This document shows positions 15,245 to 25,903 of a stretch of 64,000 nucleotides of DNA, one piece after another. The position numbers and the translations under genes are program-made. This stretch comes from Coleofasciculus sp. FACHB-T130 (GTDB lineage Bacteria > Cyanobacteriota > Cyanobacteriia > Cyanobacteriales > FACHB-T130): positions 1 to 64,000 of the forward strand of contig NZ_JACJOG010000048.1 of the NCBI RefSeq assembly GCF_014695375.1, written 5' to 3'. Position 1 is the first letter of the stretch; the number at the start of each line of letters is the position of its first letter. Below the pieces are notes generated by a model. It was not told the origin of the DNA and made no database searches. It saw nothing but the letters and a program-made list of their open reading frames with translations.

Positions 15245-15748
15245 TTAATCAAAGTAGAACAGAGTCACCACTTTGCGTTGTTCTTCCGCATCCTGACAAG
15301 TTTTGAGCAGGGTGTGGCTGTCGTGAAACGCAAAACAGATTAGCTGCTGACACCGAGAAACTATCTCTTGATTGCATAGAGCGCTGGCTTCAGCCAGCGA
15401 TAAATTGTCGTTTTCGGGATTTTCTACCAAATGCATTACCTGTTCCAACTGCTCCCGCGATTCCCGTGGCTGACGCTCTAAGCTTTGGGGCAAAATTACA
15501 GTCAGCAGGCTAGAATCGGCTCGCATCGCCCCTCGGATGGCGGCAAAATTGGTTCCGGTAGCACCAGAGGTGATGAGTCGATTCCCGGTTAAAACCAAGG
15601 CATAGCTCATCATCTCAATGAGATTTTGATGGGTGATCGGAACGTGACGCGACCCCAGCAGGGCAATCCGTTTGGAACCTGTTTGCTGGATAGTCGCCAG
15701 TTCTTGTGCTAAGGCATCAAGCTTAGGAATGTCAATGGATTGGCTCAA
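15245..15748 (-). CDS. DprA-like protein (cyanobacterial recombination-mediator A family)
   Basis: About 167 residues with a Rossmann-like pattern resembling the nucleotide-binding half of DprA/lysine-decarboxylase-like proteins: RIALLGSRHVP near the start, then LVLTGNRLITSGATGTNFAAIRGAMRAD and a C-terminal LICFAFHDSHTLL segment. Cyanobacterial relatives are annotated as DNA recombination-mediator protein A. The DprA C-terminal domain is absent. I placed the start at a TTG (15748) that gives SQSIDIPKLDALAQEL; an alternative ATG is at 15799. Neither has a strong ribosome site. Function in recombination is inferred from family naming only. Confidence 0.7.
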   Translation of the reverse strand: MSQSIDIPKLDALAQELATIQQTGSKRIALLGSRHVPITHQNLIEMMSYALVLTGNRLITSGATGTNFAAIRGAMRADSSLLTVILPQSLERQPRESREQLEQVMHLVENPENDNLSLAEASALCNQEIVSRCQQLICFAFHDSHTLLKTCQDAEEQRKVVTLFYFD

Positions 15749-15907
15749 TGACGATTTCTGTCTGAACAACCTCGCTATTTTATCAGACCCGGATGACAAC
15801 AGCGATGGAGTTTCTGCATCTTAGTTGCCTAGTTCTAAGTTCCATTGGTTAGCGAGAATTATTTGCACTTTTATAAAAAGCTATGCTATATTTATAAATC
15901 GTCGGAC

Positions 15908-15981
15908 GGACGCATAGCTCAGTTGGTTAGAGCACCACGTTGACATCGTGGGGGTCACTGGTTCGAATCCAGTTGTGTCCA
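15908..15981 (+). tRNA. tRNA-Val (anticodon GAC)
   Basis: A 74-base cloverleaf. The acceptor arm GGACGCA pairs with TGTGTCC (one G-U), with discriminator A at 15981. The D arm contains AGCTCAGTTGGTTAGAGC. The anticodon stem CCACG/CGTGG encloses the loop TTGACAT, giving anticodon GAC (valine). The T arm contains GGTTCGAATCC. The CCA end is not encoded. A run of T residues follows directly (15985-15992) and can serve as terminator. Confidence 0.95.
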
Positions 15982-16010
15982 TTATTTTTTTTGGTGCCGC
16001 TATAGGTGGC

Positions 16011-16055
16011 TGTCGATTGCCACATTATTTGACACTAATAACAAATTAGTGTCAC
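16011..16055. repeat. Inverted repeat downstream of tRNA-Val
   Basis: TGACACTAAT (16030-16039) and ATTAGTGTCA (16045-16054) form a perfect 10-base inverted repeat around AACAA. A TGT trinucleotide lies 19 bases to the left at 16011. The motif resembles, from memory, the short repeats at the ends of Tn7-like elements of cyanobacteria that insert next to tRNA genes. It could equally be a simple hairpin. The rest of 15982-16195 shows no gene. Confidence 0.4.
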
Positions 16056-16195
16056 TTTTAACGAACTACAGAGGTAAAGGCGATCGCATTTGAGCCGACA
16101 AGCGCAGCCAAAAAAACACCTTGGTAGCTGATAACCCTCTCGGTGGGAGCAAAACGCCCCTACAATCGGCTACCAAAGGATTATTCATGCGGCGC

Positions 16196-17911
16196 TTACC
16201 TTGGATAGCGCTCCACGATTCCCAAAACAGGCTTTACTTCCGACTCTGCAACCTTCGGAACTAAAAATCCTCCCGCATAAATCTGGGGATTCATGGCTGC
16301 AATTTGGGTATAAGATTGGCGAACCTGAGCATTCACTGCAACAGTTTTGACATCGTACATTTGCATACCCATATTCGGGTATACGCCAAGACCGATAATC
16401 AGCACCAGAAAGCAAGCAGCAATAAACACTTCACGAGGTCTGGCATCGATAAATGCTGCATCGATAGGTAAGCTACAGTTTGTACCAAAGCAAACCGGCT
16501 CCTGATTTCCCTGATTCTGCAAATCTACATCCGTAATGTCGCAGGTCGGTGCAATGTCGCAGGTCGGTACTTCACCAGAATTGTAAAACACCTGTCGCAG
16601 CATCGATAGCAGATAAATCGGCGTCAGGATAACACCCACGGCGGCTAGAAAGACGGTCACGGTGCGGAAAGTTGAGCTGTAGATATCGCTTGTCGTGACA
16701 CCGACAAACACCGATAGTTCGCTAGCAAAGCCGCTCATTCCTGGTAGAGCCACTGATGCCATCACACCCATTGTAAACAGGGCAAACACAGTGGGCATTG
16801 CCTGAGCAATCCCGCCCATTTCTTTCATCGACATCGTGTGAGTGCGATCGTAAGTTACTCCGGCTAAAAAGAATAGTAATGATGCAATTAAACCGTGAGA
16901 AATCATTTGCAGCATTGCGCCGTTGATTCCCAAGTCGGTGAAGGACGCAATCCCCAACAGAACAAATCCCATGTGAGAAACCGACGAATAGGCGAGGCGA
17001 CGCTTCATATTCGTCTGGGCAAAGGAGTTAAAGGCTCCGTAGATAATATTGACAACGCCCAGAATCGCTAAAACAGGTGCAAAGTAAACGTGTGCATCAG
17101 GCAGAAGTCCTAAATTGAGGCGAATCAACCCGTATCCGCCCATCTTTAGCAATACGCCTGCGAGTACCATTGATACGGGAGAGGATGCCTCGCCGTGTGC
17201 ATCCGGTAGCCAGGTGTGCAGGGGGAAAACAGCTAATTTGACACCAAAGGCAACAAGCAATCCTGCATAAAGCAGCAGTTCTAAAGCCAGCGGGTAATCT
17301 TTTAAGCCGAGTTCGACCATATCAAAGGTTAGATTGTCACCGTAGAATGCCATTGCCAGACCAGCGACCAGAATAAAGATGGAAGCGGCGGCGGTATAGA
17401 GCAAGAACTTCATCGCGGCGTACTGACGCTTCTGACCACCCCAAATCGAGACGAGTAGGTAGACGGGAATTAGTTCGACTTCCCACATAATGAACAGCAG
17501 CAGCACGTCTTGGGCGACGAATACCCCAACCTGTGCGGAATACAGCACCAGCATCAGGAAATAGAAGAGGTGGGGTTTGAGATTGACTTGCCACGCCGCA
17601 AACATGGAGAGTGTTGTCACTAATCCTGCCAGAAGCACCAGCGGGGCTGAAACTCCATCGATGGAAACTGCCCAGTTCAAGCCTAAATGAGGCACCCAGG
17701 CATATTTCTCTACAAGCTGAAAAGTCGCGCTGCTTGGATCGTAATGCTTCCAAAAGACGTAGCACATCAATATAAAGTCTGCGATCCCCACGCCGAGTGC
17801 ATACCAGCGCACTCGCGTGCCGTCTTTATCCGGCAGAAAAGGGATCAGCAGTGCAGCAACGAGTGGGAACAGGACAATCGCGCTAAGCCAAGGAAATTGA
17901 TCCGCTATCAT
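16196..17911 (-). CDS. ndhD: NAD(P)H-quinone oxidoreductase subunit 4 (NdhD)
   Basis: A 571-aa proton-pumping membrane subunit of the thylakoid NDH-1 complex, which works in respiration, cyclic electron flow and CO2 uptake. About 14 helices are visible. Family motifs include [22 protein letters not shown], the Lys-bearing [21 protein letters not shown] and [18 protein letters not shown]. The length and the C-terminal region look closest to NdhD1/NdhD2 of respiratory NDH-1. Between residues about 445 and 490 there is an unusual loop with four cysteines and a doubled (PT)CDI unit encoded by an 18-base tandem repeat. It is a lone gene with no ndhF next to it in the window. Confidence 0.95.
16535..16568. 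repeat. 18-base-period tandem duplication inside ndhD
   Basis: AATGTCGCAGGTCGGT occurs at 16535-16550 and again at 16553-16568. The period is 18 bases, so the frame is kept; on the minus strand it adds a second copy of a six-residue unit containing CDI. Confidence 0.85.
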
Positions 17912-18221
17912 GGCAGTAGGAAAAAATACTTATTTCTGTATGTAATTATTTTATTAAACTTTGTAAACACTTGGTTATAAATTTTTCTTGTAGATCACTA
18001 TAGACGGATCTATAGGTAGAGGTTAAGAACCTTAAGCGTATGGTAGACGGCGGCAGCAGATTCAAGGCGATCGCATTCTCTTCTCGTGGAGCCTAACTCG
18101 GAAGATGCGATCGCTTTCGTCCCATTCCAACACCACAAATTACTGATTTTGTCAACTGTATTGGATTGGCGCGATCGCATTTTGGCAGGATGAAAGGGTG
18201 CAATGGTGCTAGAGGCTCAGC
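17912..18221. other. Intergenic region upstream of ndhD and the hicAB operon
   Basis: About 310 bases between divergent transcription units. Several HIP1-type GCGATCGC/GCGATCGCA sites lie at 18068-18180. It must contain the leftward ndhD promoter and the rightward promoter of the hicA-hicB-McrBC-like operon. No further gene is seen. Confidence 0.5.
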
Positions 18222-18434
18222 ATGAAAGTTCGGGAAGTGATTAAGCTAATAGAAGAAGATGGTTGGTATCTGGCAAGAACTAGGGGTAGCCATCGTCAGT
18301 TCAAGCATCCAACTAAGTCCGGTTTAGTCACAATTGCAGGGAAACCGTCTGACGATCTAGCACCTGGCACGTTAAATAGCATAATGACGCAAGCTCAACT
18401 CAAGGAAGAGAAGGAAACAGGAGAACAAGAGTAA
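18222..18434 (+). CDS. hicA: HicA family toxin (mRNA interferase)
   Basis: A 70-aa protein with the HicA/YcfA double-stranded-RNA-binding fold. It carries REVIKLIEEDGWYLARTRGSHRQFKHP, with the catalytic His in GSH, and TIAGKPSDDLAPGTLNSIM. HicA toxins cleave mRNA and tmRNA. Its stop codon overlaps the hicB start by one base (TAATG). The C-terminal tail is charged (KEEKETGEQE), slightly longer than usual. It opens the operon that continues into the McrB-like and McrC-like genes. Confidence 0.9.
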   Translation: MKVREVIKLIEEDGWYLARTRGSHRQFKHPTKSGLVTIAGKPSDDLAPGTLNSIMTQAQLKEEKETGEQE

Positions 18435-18643
18435 TGCGCTATGCAATTGTGATTGAAAAGCTAGAGAGCAACTATTCAGCTTATGTTCCAGATTTACCGG
18501 GATGTGTGGCAACAGGCGCAACTCTTGAAGAGATGGAACAGCAGATAAAAGAAGCGATCGCGTTTCATTTGGATGGTTTGCGAGAAGAGGGTTTACCCAT
18601 TCCCGAACCAACTACTCTATGTGAATATGTCGAAGCTTGCTGA
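18434..18643 (+). CDS. hicB: HicB family antitoxin
   Basis: A 69-aa HicB antitoxin with the partial RNase-H-like fold: YAIVIEKLESNYSAYVPDLPGCVATG, with the DLPGC turn, and a helix EEMEQQIKEAIAFHLDGL. It ends shortly after the fold and lacks a helix-turn-helix or ribbon-helix-helix DNA-binding extension, so autoregulation by HicB alone is doubtful. It overlaps hicA by one base. The next gene starts at or just before the hicB stop, which suggests translational coupling. It carries a HIP1 site near 18554, the last one I see before 23017. Confidence 0.92.
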   Translation: MRYAIVIEKLESNYSAYVPDLPGCVATGATLEEMEQQIKEAIAFHLDGLREEGLPIPEPTTLCEYVEAC

Positions 18644-18659
18644 GGGAACAGATAATCGT

Positions 18660-20375
18660 ATGACAGTTAGCCAAGATGAACCTTTCAAGACTAATCCGTT
18701 AATTTTTCAACTTCTAACTGAGAGACTTCCTGGAAAAATCATTAAAAAATTTGGTATAGGACACTACAAGATAAAGCCCTTATTTACTAATCTTCCATTG
18801 ACAGACGGAACAAAAGTTGAAGAGTTTGTTGCTTTTGCCCATGATGTAGAAGATAGGGAACTTATACCTTATAAGGATTATGTAACATTTAGTTGGCATA
18901 AACCTGGTGAACGAGCAACAGATAAAGACGGGCAACCTGGCGATCCAAAAGCGGTAGAGGTAAAAAAAGTAAGCCAAAAAGAGGCAGATGGATTAGCTGA
19001 AGAAATCCGAAAAAACATAGCAGATGAGCTGCGTGACGAGCTGGCAAAAGAACTGACAAAGCTGAAGCAAGAGCGAGAGAGTCTTGCTGAAAGAGAGAAA
19101 GAAGTCACTTTTAAGTTAAATTATTTAGAACCTTACGGAATTCAAATTCCACCTCAATCTGAAAATAGAAGCAGTGCAATAAATGAGGAAATTACCATCC
19201 CTGAGAATTTAGGGACAGAATGGGCAGAAATATTAAACCTTAATGGAATGTATGTTAATGAAAAAATTGCAAAAAGTTATTTACTGGCATTAATAACTGC
19301 ATTATATTCAGGTCGTTTCATTCTCCTGAATGGTAGCGTAGGTGTCGGTAAAACTAGCATCGTCAAGCATTCAGCTAGATTACTTGGAGGTACATCTAAA
19401 ATTATTCCTGTTCGTCCAGCTTGGCTCGATCCTTCGGACTTACTGGGCTTTTTCGATCCAATCAACGACATTTTTCGTCCTGCTACTTTTTTGACCGCAC
19501 TTAATGAAGCTAAGAAAAAGCCAGACAGACTCCATCTAGTTTGTTTAGATGAGCTTAATCTAGCTAAAATAGAAAACTATGGTGCTGATTTACTATCTAC
19601 TTTAGAATACTCTCGAAGTAAAGAAAATACAGATGAGGAAGGGCTATTCTTATATTCTGGAGATATTTGGAAAGCTCTAGGAAAGGAAAGAAAACAATTA
19701 CAAGATAGAAATCATGAGGAGAAATTGGATTTTAAGGAAATTCAACGGCTTGAAAGATTAGACACACTGTTTGAAGATTATCCTGCCTCAACTTTTAAGA
19801 TTCCAAACAACCTGGTATTCTTAGGCACTTTAAATTCTGATGAAACAACCTATGACTTGAGTCCTAAACTTATTGATCGTTCATTTGTAATTACCTATCC
19901 TCCAGCTAACCTAAAGGTAGGGACTATCTCCAATTTACAGGAAACCGAACAAAGATTAATTTCGGTTAAATCTTTGAAAAAGCGAATATTAGACATCATA
20001 AAACCCATTGAGGATAATATAGATAGTTTTGATAGGCTACCAGAGTGGACTACTATTCAAGAATGGAATGAAAAATATTTTTGTGAAGGTAAACTTGGTA
20101 GACCTCTAGGATACAGAGCTAAAGGAGATTATAAAGTTTTTAGCGCTGCTGCACATATCCTGGGGCTTTCAAGCGATGAGTGTCTTGCTCACTTCTTATT
20201 TACTAAAGTAATCCCTAGAGTTTACTTCTTTAGAAACAAAGATACAGAACTTGTATTTAGAGAGTGGTTAGAACAGCTCGAATACTATCAAAAACATGAT
20301 CCAGCGAACATTATTGATAGTTTAGACAAACAACTGACTGACCAACAACGACAGAATATTAACTATTGGGCATAA
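18660..20375 (+). CDS. McrB-like AAA+ GTPase/ATPase with cold-shock-like and coiled-coil N-terminus
   Basis: About 571 residues from the ATG at 18660 (GAGGGA upstream, somewhat distant; an ATG at 18627 would overlap hicB). The N-terminal ~95 residues look like an OB/cold-shock fold: EEFVAFAHDVEDREL, KDYVTFSWHK and PKAVEVKKVS align by eye with CspA strands. A charged coiled coil follows (about residues 100-155). The McrB-type AAA+ domain has Walker A GSVGVGKTS at about residue 225, Walker B LVCLDELNLAKIENYGADLL, and LGTLNSDETTYDLSPKLIDRSF where McrB proteins carry their NTxD and arginine-finger region. The partner nuclease starts 3 bases after the stop. The region is AT-rich compared with flanking genes. 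Role in defence is inferred. Confidence 0.8.
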   Translation: MTVSQDEPFKTNPLIFQLLTERLPGKIIKKFGIGHYKIKPLFTNLPLTDGTKVEEFVAFAHDVEDRELIPYKDYVTFSWHKPGERATDKDGQPGDPKAVEVKKVSQKEADGLAEEIRKNIADELRDELAKELTKLKQERESLAEREKEVTFKLNYLEPYGIQIPPQSENRSSAINEEITIPENLGTEWAEILNLNGMYVNEKIAKSYLLALITALYSGRFILLNGSVGVGKTSIVKHSARLLGGTSKIIPVRPAWLDPSDLLGFFDPINDIFRPATFLTALNEAKKKPDRLHLVCLDELNLAKIENYGADLLSTLEYSRSKENTDEEGLFLYSGDIWKALGKERKQLQDRNHEEKLDFKEIQRLERLDTLFEDYPASTFKIPNNLVFLGTLNSDETTYDLSPKLIDRSFVITYPPANLKVGTISNLQETEQRLISVKSLKKRILDIIKPIEDNIDSFDRLPEWTTIQEWNEKYFCEGKLGRPLGYRAKGDYKVFSAAAHILGLSSDECLAHFLFTKVIPRVYFFRNKDTELVFREWLEQLEYYQKHDPANIIDSLDKQLTDQQRQNINYWA

Positions 20376-20378
20376 TCT

Positions 20379-22592
20379 ATGAATTCTTCAAGACTTTGCT
20401 TTATTGACAGTAAAGGAAGGGAACTTGAGAAAAATGAAGATGGAATCCAGCATATAAGGCAATACGATGAACGCTGGTGTGTTCGGGTACAGGGAGCAGA
20501 TCAGGGCAGAGTCGTACTGGCTCGAAGTCAACCGTTTCCTCCGTTTCTTCTGGATAAGGTTGCTGGAAGCAGTAATAAGTGGGAATTACCCCGAAAAATG
20601 TCATTCGAGGAGAGGAAAAATGTTACGGGTGCTGGGTACATAACAGCCTTACTACTTGACCAGACAGATAGTGTTCTTTGTGAAGCGACACTTTTAGTAT
20701 TTCCTAGCAACGTTACTGAGCAAGAATTAGACCAGATGATCAAAGAAATTGGTCAACTGGCACTTTCTACCGCAAGTTGTGTATATAGATCGATTGAAGG
20801 AGGTCAGGGTGAAGCTTGCAGAATAGAAGGTATTGGACTGCAATGGTATCCGGGCGAAGGTTTATTAACTACTGCAACTTCTTTATTGGAGTTAGCAGAA
20901 GTGGTTAAAAATAATTGGAATGTATTGAAAAAACGCCCTTTAAAAAGTTTCGTTACTCAAGTAGAGCCAGTTAGTATAAACAGGGCGAGCTTTTCTCCAC
21001 AATCTCTGATTAAAGCTAAAGTGGAGCCAGCCAAGCAAAAAATACTTGGATTTGCTCGTGTTGAATCTACCCAATGCCCTGAAAATGAATTTATTTGTTA
21101 TGTTCTAGATATTTATCTCAAAGAGTTAGCCAATGGGCTAGCTGATAGCCTTGAATCATTAGATATAGAAACTATTGATGATTCTCTAATTGTTCAATCA
21201 AATCCGAAGTCTAGAGGAGATAGAGAATTCAGGGAATTTAAAGAACAGTCTAAAAATAAAGCTCAATGCTTCAATAAGCAGAGGAAAGAAGGGAGGCAGC
21301 ACATTCAAGACAAAATATCACAGCTTCGGGATTGTGCTACCTGGGCAACTCAAGTACGAGATTCGGCGTTCCTAAAAACAGTTAATACTCCCAGCGAACT
21401 ACCCTCACCGTCTTTGCGTTTAAGCGGCTCATCTGCTTACGGTTCTATCTTTACTAAATTTTCTAACTGTAAAGGAAATGTTCTTCAGCCAATTCAGAAA
21501 GTTTTGTATTTATTTAAGTGCATTTATGAAGATCAAGTCCGTACCACTTGGGAAATATATGAGCTTTGGTGCTTCGTTAGGTTATATAGTGCATTTATTT
21601 TATATGCCAACATGAAGCCTCCTGGTAATGAGGCTTTTATTTTTGAAGTGTTAGAGAACACTCCCGAAGGTCTTAAACTTCCTACTAATAAGAGGTTTCA
21701 GCTTCAAGGGAATATTGATAATAGCCAGAGTTTCACAATTGATTTTTGGTATGATACTTCGTTTCGTGATAAAAAACCAGATATAAGAATGGAGATAGCT
21801 ATAGGTGATGAAGAACCTAAGCAATATTGCTTTGATGCTAAATATAAAAACTATAAACACCAAGGTTATGAAACTTTCGTTGGAGATGTACTTGGAGTAG
21901 CAAGAGACAAATATCTTCATCTTCTTAATTCGGCGGCTAGCTTTATTTTACAAACAGATGAATCAATTGATTATTGGGGGGAAGTTCCTTTCAGTCAGAC
22001 GCTTCAAAAAAAGCTCAATCTTGACATAGATCCTCTAGGAGAGATACGAGGTAAAGATGGACAAAACTATAAAAGTTATCCTTTAATTACTAAAAGCGAG
22101 CATCGCTCTGATTCTGATAAAGTTGGTTATAGTGGTCATAAGTATGGCGCAATTGCATTAAGACCAAAAAGAGATACAGAAAAGCAGATCAAAAAGATCA
22201 TTCGGCTTTTACTGCAATATCACGCTTCCCTAAAAACAGTCTGCATTGCCTGTGGACATAAGCTTGAGTATGGAACTGAAGTTCGGACTAGCTGGCTACC
22301 TAAGAGAATAGAAGAAAAAAAACTTATTCAGTCTGTCTTAGCTGGCAACCCCAATGTGGGAAGAACTGCACTCTACTGTTCTTGTAAACAATGTGCTGAT
22401 TTTTGGGTTGTATCTCACTGCCAAGGAAACCATCATCGCCTTCTTAAATTCAAAGATAGTTTTCACAAACAATCTAATCCCAATTCTGGTAAATGGCTAT
22501 ATGATTGTCCTGTCTGCGGTGGTAAGCTTTCAGTAGATTCAGAAGAATTACCGATTATGTGTAACGAAGAACCTATGGACATAGGGTTTTAA
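20379..22592 (+). CDS. McrC-like PD-(D/E)XK nuclease with C-terminal zinc ribbons
   Basis: A 737-aa protein. The N-terminal ~200 residues are beta-rich and unrecognised. The middle (about 230-420) is helical and resembles the DUF2357/McrC connector region. A PD-(D/E)XK nuclease core follows: FTIDFWYDTSF...KPDIRMEIAI...YCFDAKYKNYKHQ supplies the D, D and DAK catalytic residues. The C-terminal ~140 residues carry at least four Cys pairs (CIACGH, CSCKQC, CPVCGG, plus a His/Cys-rich HCQGNHH) and are probably zinc ribbons. McrC family members are the nuclease subunits recruited and driven by McrB GTPases. The gene begins 3 bases after its McrB-like partner. What the zinc module binds is unknown. 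Confidence 0.8.
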   Translation: MNSSRLCFIDSKGRELEKNEDGIQHIRQYDERWCVRVQGADQGRVVLARSQPFPPFLLDKVAGSSNKWELPRKMSFEERKNVTGAGYITALLLDQTDSVLCEATLLVFPSNVTEQELDQMIKEIGQLALSTASCVYRSIEGGQGEACRIEGIGLQWYPGEGLLTTATSLLELAEVVKNNWNVLKKRPLKSFVTQVEPVSINRASFSPQSLIKAKVEPAKQKILGFARVESTQCPENEFICYVLDIYLKELANGLADSLESLDIETIDDSLIVQSNPKSRGDREFREFKEQSKNKAQCFNKQRKEGRQHIQDKISQLRDCATWATQVRDSAFLKTVNTPSELPSPSLRLSGSSAYGSIFTKFSNCKGNVLQPIQKVLYLFKCIYEDQVRTTWEIYELWCFVRLYSAFILYANMKPPGNEAFIFEVLENTPEGLKLPTNKRFQLQGNIDNSQSFTIDFWYDTSFRDKKPDIRMEIAIGDEEPKQYCFDAKYKNYKHQGYETFVGDVLGVARDKYLHLLNSAASFILQTDESIDYWGEVPFSQTLQKKLNLDIDPLGEIRGKDGQNYKSYPLITKSEHRSDSDKVGYSGHKYGAIALRPKRDTEKQIKKIIRLLLQYHASLKTVCIACGHKLEYGTEVRTSWLPKRIEEKKLIQSVLAGNPNVGRTALYCSCKQCADFWVVSHCQGNHHRLLKFKDSFHKQSNPNSGKWLYDCPVCGGKLSVDSEELPIMCNEEPMDIGF

Positions 22593-22593
22593 A

Positions 22594-22845
22594 ATGCGAT
22601 CACTTGTTCATTCCTTCCCAACTTTCTCAGTTAAGAAAAGATTGATATTATAAATTATCCCAAATTTTCAAAAAAGCTATTTCAAAATAAATGGCTTGCT
22701 ACTTGATAGAGCAGAGCCAGGATGAACGGGATAACGAGCGGGAGAGTCACGATCAGTCCCCATTTGCCAAATTGAAGTTCTTGATTATCGATTTGAGTAG
22801 TGCGAGCAAGAGCTTCGGCTCCCCTTAGTATCGAGGTATAGGCAT
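22594..22845 (-). pseudogene. Truncated copy of the small two-helix membrane protein gene
   Basis: This stretch is about 80% identical by eye to 23645-23885, which holds an intact gene on the minus strand. Here only the C-terminal half survives (QELQFGKWGLIVTLPLVIPFILALLYQVA, then an early stop). The 5' part is replaced by unrelated sequence just before the Uma2 gene. It is a decayed duplicate, not an active gene. Confidence 0.75.
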
Positions 22846-22891
22846 TGAATCGAATCCTATCAAGGTAATGTAGAGTATTGGAGACTTCACC

Positions 22892-23500
22892 ATGACTCAA
22901 GCGATATCCAAGTTAATAAATTTTGATGAGTTTCTAGAATGGAAACCCGAAAACGGACGCTATGAATTACATAACGGAGTGATTGTTGAAATGCCAAATC
23001 CAACGGGTAAACATTCAGCGATCGCAGGTTTTCAGTCGCTCGAATTTGGTTTAGAAATCAGGCGATTACAACTTCCTTACTTTATTCCCAAGGAATGTAC
23101 AATTAAATTTAGCGATAACTTTGGCTACGATCCAGATGTGGTTGTATTAGATAAGCAACTCGTAGAAGCCAATGAGCCTCGCTGGGAAAAAGAGTCAGTT
23201 ATTACTAGGGGAGATTCTGTAAAATTAGTTGTTGAAGTTGTCAGCACAAATTGGCGCGATGATTATGCCCACAAAATGATTGACTATGAAGCCTTAGGCA
23301 TTGGTGAATATTGGATTGTAGATTATTTGGGTTTAGGTGGTAGCCGTTATATTGGTTCACCTAAACAGCCTACTTTATCGATTTATCAGTTAGTAGATGG
23401 TGAGTATCAAATTAAGCTGTTTCGAGAGAATGAAAGGGTTGAGTCGGTGGTGTTTCCAGAACTCAATGTGACTGCAAAGCAATTTTTTAATGCTGGGTAA
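22892..23500 (+). CDS. Uma2 family (DUF820) PD-(D/E)XK nuclease-like protein
   Basis: A 202-aa protein of a family hugely expanded in cyanobacteria. It opens with NFDEFLEWKPENGRYELHNGVIVEM. The nuclease-like core is YDPDVVVLD, then KLVVEVVSTNWRDDY and HKMIDYEALGIGEYWIVD, giving the D, E and Q/K-type positions. Members are predicted nucleases, but their cellular role is not established and the gene is often carried on mobile segments. It sits between two copies of a duplicated segment (see 22594-22845 and 23583-23641). Confidence 0.88.
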   Translation: MTQAISKLINFDEFLEWKPENGRYELHNGVIVEMPNPTGKHSAIAGFQSLEFGLEIRRLQLPYFIPKECTIKFSDNFGYDPDVVVLDKQLVEANEPRWEKESVITRGDSVKLVVEVVSTNWRDDYAHKMIDYEALGIGEYWIVDYLGLGGSRYIGSPKQPTLSIYQLVDGEYQIKLFRENERVESVVFPELNVTAKQFFNAG

Positions 23501-23582
23501 GTATTCAGGCAGTCAATCTTGATTATCCTAAAAAGCTTTTTATTCTAATTCAGATTTTGATCCAGTAGTCTTATTTTAATTG

Positions 23583-23641
23583 AGGTCGATCTTCCTTATC
23601 ATTTAGTCAATAGTGCCCCTGCGTCTCGCCCTCAATGCGAT
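23583..23641 (-). pseudogene. Remnant of the 3' end of a DCC-family gene
   Basis: About 60 bases here (including TGCCCCTGCGTCTCGC and CATTTAG) match the 3' end of the DCC gene at 24022-24085 with scattered differences. The remainder of that copy is absent. With the truncated membrane-gene copy at 22594-22845, it shows that a membrane-gene/DCC block was once tandemly duplicated. Confidence 0.6.
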
Positions 23642-23718
23642 TGTTAGCGATCGCTTATTCATTTCCACCCAACTTTTCCAGCTAACACAAGATTAATGTT
23701 AGGATTTAGCCCAAATTT

Positions 23719-23931
23719 TCAAAAAAGGTATTTCAGAATAAACGGTCTTGCTACTTGATAGAGCAGAGCCAGGATAAACGGGATAACGATCGGGAGAGCT
23801 ACTATCAGTCCCCATTTGCCAAACCGAAGCTCTTGATTCTCGGATTTGAGGAGTGCAATCACAGCAGCGGCTCCCATTAATATCCAGATACAAGCAAAGA
23901 CAATGAAGATAATATATGCTGAGTCTTGCAT
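23719..23931 (-). CDS. Small two-helix membrane protein, function unknown
   Basis: A 70-aa protein with two hydrophobic helices (IIFIVFACIWILMGAAAVIALL and GLIVALPIVIPFILALLYQVA) joined by the polar loop KSENQELRFGK. There is no recognised family. A truncated copy lies 1.05 kb to the left. A short gene in a duplicated segment, it could be a real inner-membrane peptide; conservation of the loop and second helix between copies supports coding. Confidence 0.55.
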   Translation of the reverse strand: MQDSAYIIFIVFACIWILMGAAAVIALLKSENQELRFGKWGLIVALPIVIPFILALLYQVARPFILKYLF

Positions 23932-24021
23932 TTTTTTCCCTACTAGCGAAAGTAGTCTAGTTTTAGGTTAGCTTGACCTATTTGTGCAGTTAACTTCCTT
24001 TAGTTGGGTTATTCTGATTGA

Positions 24022-24534
24022 CTAAGGTTGATTATCGTCATTTAGCCGACAGCGCCCCTGCGTCTCGCACTCAATGTGCTTCTGGCGCTTGCTAACAATC
24101 ATGGCTAAATCGGGTCGTCCAGTCAGAGCGAGTCGCCAATCAGCCCAAATTTCATACAGCGTATCCGCAATAGAACCGATAATCGGCAATTTAGTCACCG
24201 CATAGATCCACCCCATCCCCAAGATTTCATAGACGCGGCGGAAGACTTCCACATTCTTGACGACTGTGCCATCAGGAAGCACGGCATGAATTCGCCCCAT
24301 CGCCGTTTCAAAGTCAACACCGCCATGCGCTTCTGGGGTATAGCGATCGCCTGCGATGTCCACAAACGCCACCAAACCTCGACCCGCATCCCGTCTCCTC
24401 AAAAAATTGACTTCTCGCACGCACAAGGGACATTCACCGTCATACAGCAACTCTATTTGCCATGATGGTGAAGAAGATTGAGGTGGAGTAGAGGCTTCAA
24501 GCGATTCGGGGAACGGAGTCTTAGAAGAGGACAT
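24022..24534 (-). CDS. DCC family thiol-disulfide oxidoreductase-like protein (DUF393)
   Basis: A 170-aa protein with the DUF393 signature YDGECPLCVREVNFLRRRDA near the N-terminus, giving a thioredoxin-like CxxC site (CPLC). A hydrophobic segment YAVTKLPIIGSIADTLYEIWADWR follows, in the usual place. A Ser/Pro-rich N-terminal extension of about 25 residues precedes the domain. The C-terminal tail has two extra Cys (IECETQGRC). Proteins of this family are predicted redox proteins of unknown substrate. Its 3' end was part of an old tandem duplication. Confidence 0.87.
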   Translation of the reverse strand: MSSSKTPFPESLEASTPPQSSSPSWQIELLYDGECPLCVREVNFLRRRDAGRGLVAFVDIAGDRYTPEAHGGVDFETAMGRIHAVLPDGTVVKNVEVFRRVYEILGMGWIYAVTKLPIIGSIADTLYEIWADWRLALTGRPDLAMIVSKRQKHIECETQGRCRLNDDNQP

Positions 24535-24609
24535 AGGTGGTTCTCAATTAACGGATTCCTCACATGAGGAGAACAAGCACACCTTAATATTGTAAAGAAA
24601 CTTAAAGAT

Positions 24610-25488
24610 ATGAGCTTTCTTCTGGGATGTGCAGTTTGGGGTTATAAAGGCTGGATAGGCGACCTTTTTCCGGCTGGAAGCCGTTCCAAAGATTTTCTGC
24701 GCCTATACAGTCAGCGTTTCACGACCGTTGAAGGCAATACGACTTTCTATGCCGTACCTGACGCCGATACTGTAGCGCGTTGGGCACAAGAAACACCACC
24801 AGGGTTTAAATTTTGCCTGAAGTTGCCTCGGAATGTGACACACAATGGCTTGCTACAACCGTCGATTCCAGAGGCATTAAAGTTTTTAGAACAGATGCAA
24901 GGTTTAGGCGTTAATGCAGCGTCTCCTCAGGAGAGTCGCCTTGGCCCCATTTTTGCCCAATTACCGCCTAACTATCCCCCGGCATATTTGGATGACTTAA
25001 CCGCTTTTTTGGAAGCATGGCCTCGCAATGAAGCGCCTTTAGCGCTAGAAGTTCGTCATTCCGACTGGTTCAAAGAACCCCACAGCAGCCATCTGACGGC
25101 GCTTTTGCAGCAGTTGGGTGTGGGACGGGTACTGCTGGATACTCGCCCTGTTTACACGGGATCGGCGAATTCTCAAGAGTGTCCAGAATCGCGAAAACCC
25201 AACGTGCCTGTGCAACCGATTGTCACGGCTTCCTTTAGCTTAATCCGGTTTATCAGCCATCCAGAGCAGTCGGTGAATCAGCCTTTTATGGAAGAGTGGG
25301 TGAGTTTGCTAGATGGGTGGTTGCGTCAGGGGACAAAGATTTACTTCTTTGTCCATTGTCCTCTAGAAGAGCGATCGCCCGGAAATGCCCGTCACTTTCA
25401 GCAGTTGCTGGAACAACATAACGCACCCGTTCCACCCCTTCCCTGGAATGGGATTGAGGTACCGCCTACCCAGCTAAGTCTGTTTTGA
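24610..25488 (+). CDS. DUF72 domain-containing protein
   Basis: A 292-aa protein opening with LLGCAVWGYKGWIGDLFPAGSRSKDFLRLYSQRF and the typical VEGNTTFYAVP strand; later FCLKLPRN and FFVHCPLEERSPGNAR. DUF72 proteins adopt a TIM barrel. Their biochemical function is not firmly known. The gene is divergent from the DCC gene. A small-residue-rich insertion (GLGVNAASPQESR) lies near residue 100. Confidence 0.88.
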   Translation: MSFLLGCAVWGYKGWIGDLFPAGSRSKDFLRLYSQRFTTVEGNTTFYAVPDADTVARWAQETPPGFKFCLKLPRNVTHNGLLQPSIPEALKFLEQMQGLGVNAASPQESRLGPIFAQLPPNYPPAYLDDLTAFLEAWPRNEAPLALEVRHSDWFKEPHSSHLTALLQQLGVGRVLLDTRPVYTGSANSQECPESRKPNVPVQPIVTASFSLIRFISHPEQSVNQPFMEEWVSLLDGWLRQGTKIYFFVHCPLEERSPGNARHFQQLLEQHNAPVPPLPWNGIEVPPTQLSLF

Positions 25489-25499
25489 AAGAATTATAT

Positions 25500-25892
25500 C
25501 TACCGATTCCTCGGTCTAACGATTGGAACTTGTTTAGGAGGAACAATGGTTACATCGGTCGAACGAACTCTAGAAGCAGTGAGCTTCTGGTAAAATAACC
25601 CTGCTGATTGCGGAGTCGGAAATGGGCCAACTTGGATGCCATCGACTCGATTATTCGTGTCTCTCCAGTAACAAGAGCGAACTTGGATACTTGGGTATTC
25701 TCTAGTTATCCGTTGCAGAACAGTTCGATTAGAATTTTTAACTCGAACTAACCATTTTCCTGCAAAAGAAGGACAGTTCGTTGCATTTGCTTGAGCGCTA
25801 GCAAAGCGGTGTTGGTCTAAGCACAATGTTTGGATGCCAGAAAACGAAAAACCCAGGATGATGGCTAGAGTGAATTTGGCGCGATTGTTCAT
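25500..25892 (-). CDS. Secreted SPOR-like domain protein
   Basis: A 130-aa protein. The N-terminus (residues about 1-34) is a signal peptide ending near AQANA. The C-terminal part (WRDTNNRVDGIQVGPFPTPQSAGLFYQKLTA) resembles a SPOR peptidoglycan-binding repeat. The tail is basic and Pro-rich. It is likely periplasmic or wall-associated; the exact role is unknown. It lies 11 bases downstream of ycf66 on the same strand and may be cotranscribed with it. Confidence 0.65.
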   Translation of the reverse strand: MNNRAKFTLAIILGFSFSGIQTLCLDQHRFASAQANATNCPSFAGKWLVRVKNSNRTVLQRITREYPSIQVRSCYWRDTNNRVDGIQVGPFPTPQSAGLFYQKLTASRVRSTDVTIVPPKQVPIVRPRNR

Positions 25893-25903
25893 AAAAGATG
25901 AAT

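Follow-up and report, generated by a model that had tools for sequence, protein, structure and literature searches.

Does a toxin-antitoxin pair lying directly ahead of a restriction-type gene pair work with it, or does it only live next door? The question is raised by a locus of Coleofasciculus sp. FACHB-T130 (assembly GCF_014695375.1, contig NZ_JACJOG010000048.1, positions 1 to 64,000; these 64,000 nucleotides are referred to here as the window), in which hicA and hicB are followed by two genes that we name cnuB and cnuC. A preliminary description, made from the letters of the window, had read these as a HicAB toxin-antitoxin joined in one operon to a McrBC-type, CoCoNuT-like system for which it could act as a fail-safe or addiction guard. 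Open reading frame calls and Pfam matches bear out the four genes and their order:

18222..18434, + strand: hicA, mRNA-interferase-type toxin of 70 residues (Pfam PF07927 HicA_toxin, 4e-22)
18434..18643, + strand: hicB, short antitoxin of 69 residues (Pfam PF15919 HicB_lk_antitox, 1.8e-14)
18660..20375, + strand: cnuB, probable NxD-type McrB-family AAA+ protein of 571 residues (PADLOC, PDB, tree)
20379..22592, + strand: cnuC, probable McrC-type nuclease of 737 residues (PDDEXK_7)
18649..22595, + strand: probable inserted piece, edges approximate, consisting of 11 nt, cnuB, 3 nt, cnuC and 3 nt, right behind the hicB stop
22596..22790, no strand: right flank of the insert, an 81% direct repeat of 23647-23842

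We consider it likely that cnuBC is an acquired two-gene defence-type system of the NxD branch of McrBC, near Type I CoCoNuT, which sits behind a resident hicAB, and that HicAB is its neighbour and not its guard.

We compared positions 15500-25900 with the genome itself and with five genomes of the same family. The match to a genome of the same genus (G001) spans ndhD and hicAB, ends at 18648 and resumes at 23683; the G001 stretch that matches from 23683 also matches the repeat copy of the window at 22631-22844. Behind its hicAB, G001 carries a gene with AbiJ_NTD4 (3e-23) and DUF7014 (1.6e-39) domains. In another member of the family (G005), the hicA orthologue is 91% identical, hicAB is 92% identical at the nucleotide level, and similarity ends at 18647; the next gene encodes a 331-residue protein with no Pfam match and PADLOC matches only at E 0.014-0.025, followed by the same right flank as in the window. 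The alignment of the three loci places a common break 4-5 bases past the hicB stop. On the other side, the right flank begins at about 22596, 3 bases past the cnuC stop, and is repeated in the window at 23647; it lies about 8 bases past the AbiJ stop in G001 and about 95 bases past the cargo stop in G005, and is also found in a third family member (G002). Since similarity to the relatives breaks on both sides, we place the insert at about 18649-22595. hicAB itself looks resident, because it is present at the same place in G001 with an identity (95.8%) like that of the neighbouring genes (ndhD 93.1%, a DCC1-like gene 93.2%, a DUF72 gene 95.3%); identity across the ndhD-hicA spacer is 76.7%. The remaining family genomes (G002, G003 and G004) have no close match to the window HicA.

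cnuBC also differs in composition. The proportion of G+C is 36.1% in cnuB and 38.3% in cnuC, against 44.3% in hicAB and 46.4% in the window as a whole, and the longest HIP1-octamer-free gap of the window, among 84 sites with a mean spacing of 762, runs from 18554 to 23018 (4,464 bases start to start). The preliminary description had taken AT-richness and the absence of HIP1 sites between about 18560 and 23017 as signs of a foreign piece; the HIP1 gap and the low G+C of cnuBC uphold this, while the extent shrinks to about 18649-22595 and excludes hicAB. The sequence comparison favours HicAB as the older resident and cnuBC as a bare two-gene insert behind it, which was probably acquired horizontally; we infer that the pair was gained here rather than lost from the relatives, and the direction of exchange likewise.

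The surroundings of the insert hold several further features. Two direct repeats of about 200 bases, about 81% identical, flank a Uma2 gene (22892-23500; the whole at window 22596-23842). On the ndhD side, where the window has hicAB-cnuBC, G002 carries DUF6883, DUF4926 and DpnII-MboI-type genes (L121:4359-6086) and G005 a 594-residue protein with no Pfam match (L122:4690-6471), so that the family varies on this side. G005 also has, beside hicAB, an open reading frame that matches the Tn7 TnsA-like N-terminal and rve families and runs off the stretch (L119:6696-8501).

Within the insert the genes are tightly packed. cnuC starts 3 bases past the cnuB stop, and the AAA+ frame offers three in-frame ATG candidates, at 18573, 18627 and 18660. 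The last is most likely the start of cnuB, since it gives the N-terminal length found in relatives (22 residues ahead of an LPG stretch, against 21-24 in relatives and 30 in Annamia) and a beginning, MTVSQD, that aligns with MTYSQD of the Annamia protein. The hicB stop and this start are 16 bases apart, and because this gap is so short, read-through from hicAB, and hence co-transcription, is likely. Matches in a terminator scan were not above those in shuffled sequence.

In order to determine whether the pairing is repeated elsewhere, we searched for CnuC relatives in 386 genomes of the phylum, 388 of the order and 388 of the class (overlapping samples), and among GTDB contigs with a pattern scan; CnuB was sought in 148 relatives, and both proteins in plasmids. 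Three genomes with weak partial matches (E 2.5e-4 to 3.6e-4; G128, G374 and G730) and a further seven distant loci matched in part (L056-L062) were left out of the clade, and two loci found twice (G816 is L053 and G783 is L055 by sequence) were each counted once. The resulting cnuBC clade comprises 14 distinct loci, of which the window is one and two (G107 and G612) are decayed, and hicAB directly adjoins cnuBC in the window only. The 13 remaining carriers, namely 10 cyanobacterial genomes, another genome and two plasmid records, were searched for the HicA and HicB_lk families; HicA was present in 10, never adjacent to cnuBC, with no HicA match in the two plasmid records (W01 and W02) and one genome (G917). 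Within 6 kb of cnuBC, HicA lies about 2.5 kb upstream in L053/G816, 4.2 kb upstream in L211/G792 and about 5.7 kb downstream in G136; in L053 and L211 the order is hicB-hicA, with three and four genes in between, respectively. These cases were not taken as support because HicA is common in carrier genomes, with up to 21 matches at E<=0.01.

The converse search gave the same picture. Orthologues of hicAB were matched in 149 of 388 genomes, from which we examined 40 loci, one per genome, outside the family but within the order, the best-scoring among the matches listed (G574 omitted). cnuBC was matched at none of the 40, in four of which (L166, L167, L177 and L185) the contig ends less than 800 bases behind hicB; the genes behind hicB are mixed and, by eye, mostly ordinary. 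At one locus (L173, in G473), hicAB is convergent to an opposite-strand NxxD-type McrB-like AAA+ gene and, by eye, a McrC gene. With adjacency in one of 14 clade loci and none of 40 hicAB loci, the distribution led us to reject HicAB as a conserved partner of cnuBC, and the across-genome repetition on which the guard proposal depended did not appear: among the genomes searched, the adjacency is unique to this one. None of the papers found on HicA with McrBC deals, judged by title, with such an operon, and HicA does not occur in the main text of the CoCoNuT paper (PMC11090510).

What, then, is the inserted pair? In CnuB, alignments and an AlphaFold model of low confidence delineate the following parts:

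18723..18968, + strand: N-terminal five-stranded part, perhaps cold-shock-like on weak evidence (AlphaFold strands between residues 22 and 103)
18975..19136, + strand: predicted long helix, coiled-coil-like, residues 106-159 (AlphaFold, low confidence)
19332..19358, + strand: Walker A, GSVGVGKTS (alignments)
19545..19562, + strand: Walker B, LDELNL (alignments)
19659..19778, + strand: helical insert between Walker B and NxD (spacing; helices 334-353 and 358-373 in the weak model)
19833..19841, + strand: NxD motif, N392-S-D394 (alignments)

CnuB matches Pfam AAA_5 above the cut-off (5e-5) and PADLOC PDC-M26A (4e-48), and its best single-sequence match in the PDB is E. coli McrB (6hz4, E 9e-4). 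Its signature, GTLNSDE, has the NxD form followed by E, and NxD is present in the 28 other matched proteins, the exception being the NxxD contrast from G473 (GTMNTAD). The shortened NxD in place of NxxD has been described as characterizing the branch of McrB GTPases to which the CoCoNuTs belong, and a helical insert between Walker B and NxD as what distinguishes Type I-A CoCoNuT (PMC11090510). In the window protein the two motifs are 95 residues apart, within the 89-100 of 10 of the 11 clade members measured, the eleventh being Annamia with 63; outside the clade the spacing amounts to 123 residues for the Klebsiella plasmid pair, to 84 for a protein of a Priestia plasmid and to 57 for Synechocystis pSYSX. 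The AlphaFold model, built, like that of CnuC, from four sequences, has a five-stranded N-terminal part, a 54-residue helix (106-159) and the insert helices. It is thus in line with a predicted layout of cold-shock domain, coiled coil and GTPase, the N-terminal barrel and long helix of which come from weak models.

CnuC carries the nuclease:

21552..21851, + strand: PD-(D/E)XK domain, with P467-D468 and D486-A487-K488 (Pfam 3.2e-7)
22242..22517, + strand: zinc-ribbon-like cysteines C622, C625, C669, C672, C681, C710 and C713 (alignment)

The protein matches Pfam PDDEXK_7 (PF04411) above the cut-off, at 3.2e-7, and PADLOC PDC-M26B at 9e-7. We aligned 13 CnuB and 13 CnuC proteins, from the window, 10 further clade members, L198 and L196. 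PDDEXK_7 is detected in all 13 CnuC proteins, in which P467, D468, D486, A487 and K488 are invariant, as are six of the seven cysteines, C672 being nearly so; two zinc-binding Pfam families each match three of the 13. Of these 13, two of which come from outside the clade, seven show DUF2357 at E<=0.1, with a best value of 6e-4. In a profile comparison, the CnuC family resembles the Klebsiella CnuC-like protein in its nuclease and zinc parts with 98% probability.

A tree of 31 GTPase domains, in which 11 of the 14 clade loci were included (L209, L211 and the broken L075 being left out), groups the window with 10 relatives in one clade (support 99/97), separate from a 14-member group containing Synechocystis pSYSX, with long branches that leave the deeper order unsure. 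The closest described relative is the CnuB-CnuC pair of Type I CoCoNuT (Bell et al. 2024, PMC11090510), which shares with the window the two genes, the NxD GTPase, a helical insert as in Type I-A and zinc-ribbon cysteines in the nuclease, and perhaps, as weakly predicted here, an N-terminal barrel and long helix. It differs in that the window pair belongs to its own well-supported and mostly cyanobacterial clade, one member of which, Annamia, lacks the insert of Type I-A. From the Klebsiella plasmid pair the window proteins are distant (26% identity for CnuB, 17% for CnuC), and while that pair matches the PADLOC candidate PDC-M26 over its full length (1130 and 1429 bits), the window matches are partial; a literature search on PDC-M26 found no paper. 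E. coli K-12 McrBC likewise combines an AAA+ protein (PDB match E 9e-4) with a PD-(D/E)XK partner, but has NxxD instead of NxD and another N-terminal part, and CnuC matches no solved McrC. The NxD motif, the insert, PDDEXK_7, the PADLOC matches and the clade thus bear out the McrB/McrC-type, CoCoNuT-like identity that the preliminary description had proposed. Placed on our own tree rather than the published one, cnuBC is probably an NxD-branch pair of the McrBC family, CoCoNuT-like and Type I-like, to which we assign no subtype.

Some related loci have neighbours of their own. The Klebsiella plasmids (L197 and L198, with the full-length PDC-M26A/B match tested in L198) carry vapBC about 250 bases downstream of their CoCoNuT-like pair. 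In two Pseudanabaena-type genomes, a gene (L053:5668-6798 and L211:6120-7250, with an HNH_4 match in L053) ends 48 bases ahead of cnuB. A viral origin was considered and rejected: pattern scans of viral contigs returned one stretch for CnuB and 82 for the CnuC alignment, among which no relative was confirmed.

A number of results weigh against the reading of cnuBC as an acquired CoCoNuT-like pair served by hicAB transcription. In a profile search of the PDB with CnuB, the top match is midasin (3e-10), ahead of McrB (1.8e-4). With the weak CnuB model (mean predicted local distance difference test score, pLDDT, of 55, low confidence), Foldseek ranks MCM, BrxL and RavA above McrB (rank 21), and among the 50 matches listed by VIA-align McrB is absent, the same three standing above; the fold comparison points to AAA+ proteins in general. 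The profile searches that the preliminary description had proposed as a check came out in part: PDDEXK_7, McrB in the PDB and PDC-M26A/B were found, whereas the NCBIfam McrB model scores far below its cut-off and the window CnuC yielded no DUF2357 match. Sequence searches of the PDB gave no match of CnuC to a solved McrC, and its AlphaFold model is of low confidence (pLDDT 42). The cold-shock reading of the CnuB N-terminal part stems from its sole PDB profile match, the cold-shock-domain protein Unr (E 0.11). At the locus itself, hicAB occupies this place in two of the five other family genomes searched, its left neighbour in G005 is not ndhD, and a promoter scan gave no more matches than shuffled sequence did, with the + strand ahead of hicA free of them, so that read-through is a reading of the spacing. 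Could the pair, then, belong to another AAA+ family and act outside defence? The midasin match, the likeness of the model to MCM, BrxL and RavA and weak CnuB matches to TsaE and Lon would fit, but the top single-sequence PDB match is McrB, the NxD signature is followed by E, the partner has PDDEXK_7 in 13 of 13 proteins with DUF2357 traces in seven, and PADLOC PDC-M26A/B match; we regard this alternative as very unlikely.

The resident pair is a HicAB type II toxin-antitoxin by its two Pfam domains, both above the cut-off and in adjacent genes with intact frames that overlap by one base; it departs from such systems in that its antitoxin is merely 69 residues long and cnuBC lies directly behind it. 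HicB covers positions 1-65 of the 123 of the HicB_lk_antitox model, that is, the first half, and longer HicB proteins carry a DNA-binding part in the second half of the family model. Autoregulation by HicB is therefore not assumed.

Could HicAB and CnuBC nevertheless be one functional unit, with HicA as the fail-safe or addiction toxin that would strike on failure or loss of the nuclease system? The common strand, the one-base overlap, the 16-base gap behind hicB and the intact HicA and HicB frames are what such a unit would look like. Nor is a toxin partner unheard of: BrnT-like toxins have been described upstream of RtcR-associated CoCoNuTs (PMC11090510), which counts against a mere neighbourhood, and a toxin-antitoxin system has been reported to act in concert with EcoK McrBC against phage T2 (PMC10783111). 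Against this, two relatives have other genes behind hicAB, adjacency occurs at one clade locus in 14, three carriers (W01, W02 and G917) have no HicA match, and in G001, where hicAB is resident without cnuBC, hicA is frameshifted by a 1-base deletion while the gene behind it stays open. We judge a joint unit improbable, and the guard role of the preliminary description is not borne out; cooperation between HicAB and CnuBC is possible, and the distribution does not call for it. A more tentative case can be made for the slot behind hicB as an exchange site, with hicAB as a fixed left arm and defence-type genes swapped behind it, perhaps profiting from a hicAB promoter and from resistance to loss. 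Three family members have three inserts starting 4-5 bases past the hicB stop (cnuBC, the AbiJ-type gene and the 331-residue protein; window 18643-18660, L118 and L119), the shared flank follows the cargo stop at a distance of about 3 bases (window) or about 8 bases (G001), and the ndhD side is variable too, with the DpnII-MboI-type gene of G002. However, these are three genomes only, the stretch that G005 has in common with the window starts about 95 bases past its cargo stop, the 331-residue protein lacks a Pfam match and has PADLOC values no better than E 0.014-0.025, and the 40 hicAB loci elsewhere in the order are followed by mixed, by eye mostly ordinary genes. Such a site seems to us conceivable, with the odds somewhat against it. 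As far as sequence comparison goes, the adjacency is best explained by chance insertion, or at most by a shared slot with shared transcription.

If cnuBC is an acquired NxD-branch system, its probable role is antiviral defence, and its working would run as follows. The N-terminal part of CnuB would sense invader-related nucleic acid; CnuB would assemble on CnuC as a GTP-hydrolysing AAA+ ring, which by likeness to McrBC would switch on the PD-(D/E)XK nuclease, and activated CnuC would then cut nucleic acid of invader or host. The change to NxD, together with the distinct N-terminal part, suggests a trigger other than that of McrBC, and for CoCoNuTs the proposed trigger is RNA (PMC11090510). The cassette, almost leaderless, probably depends, at least in part, on read-through out of the hicAB operon, with HicAB supplying the place and perhaps the transcription. 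Sensing, GTP use, nuclease activity and transcription of cnuBC are in this sense predicted properties. A fail-safe would have joined two defence layers; the comparison yields instead a bare pair behind a resident operon, maybe using its transcription.

The most interesting part of the analysis is a group of relatives whose GTPase has a retron-type reverse transcriptase (RT) fused to it:

L032:10103-12361, - strand: RT-CnuB fusion in G019, cnuC downstream, terminal-repeat RNA upstream
L068:10139-12409, - strand: RT-CnuB fusion in G225, cnuC downstream, terminal-repeat RNA upstream
L051:5728-7986, + strand: RT-CnuB fusion in Nostoc sp. HK-01 plasmid4, cnuC downstream, terminal-repeat RNA upstream

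These three CnuB homologues, of 753-757 residues, have an N-terminal retron-type RT ahead of the same GTPase, with cnuC directly behind, and form a subclade (support 97/100). The RT part matches RVT_1 (8e-20 to 1.2e-18) and, over that part only, PADLOC RT-Protease_XI (1.7e-127 to 2.4e-126), and it contains YADD, NAKAH and VTG motifs; YADD, NAXXH and VTG are reported as conserved in the retron RTs Eco1 and Eco2 (PMC12405507). Upstream of each fusion lies a near-identical element, about 100 bases long, whose ends are complementary and which in G225 has a loop 9 bases longer and is farther from the RT gene. Two copies were tested and fold better than each of 200 shuffles (z -5.7 and -4.6); the three copies are near-identical, so that they offer no covariation. 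Rfam at the gathering threshold gave nothing at this RNA and one unrelated Yfr1 match. We infer that the retron-like RNA is reverse transcribed.

Retrons have been sorted into 13 types by effector and operon (PMC12548924). The fusions resemble those with a fused effector (PADLOC types I-C, XI and XII) in the RT at the N-terminus of the three CnuB relatives, the motifs and the upstream RNA, and differ from them in what the RT is joined to, an NxD GTPase with a cnuC gene behind it; the arrangement belongs to these relatives and not to the window itself. Among the titles and abstract starts listed by literature searches, none describes a fusion of this kind, and the main text of the CoCoNuT paper (PMC11090510) has no occurrence of "retron" or "reverse transcriptase". 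The fusions suggest that N-terminal sensors are exchangeable in the CnuBC clade. We lean towards seeing the clade as a plug-in defence motor, in which GTPase and nuclease form a constant core and the N-terminal sensor is swapped, one swap being a complete retron (an RT-GTPase with its own msr-msd RNA). If this is true, reverse-transcribed DNA would guard a McrBC-type nuclease, in a type of retron outside the effectors that we found described. The same GTPase-nuclease pair, occurring with one N-terminal part or with a retron, would make sensor and effector separable by domain swap and offer a natural experiment on CoCoNuT-like sensing.

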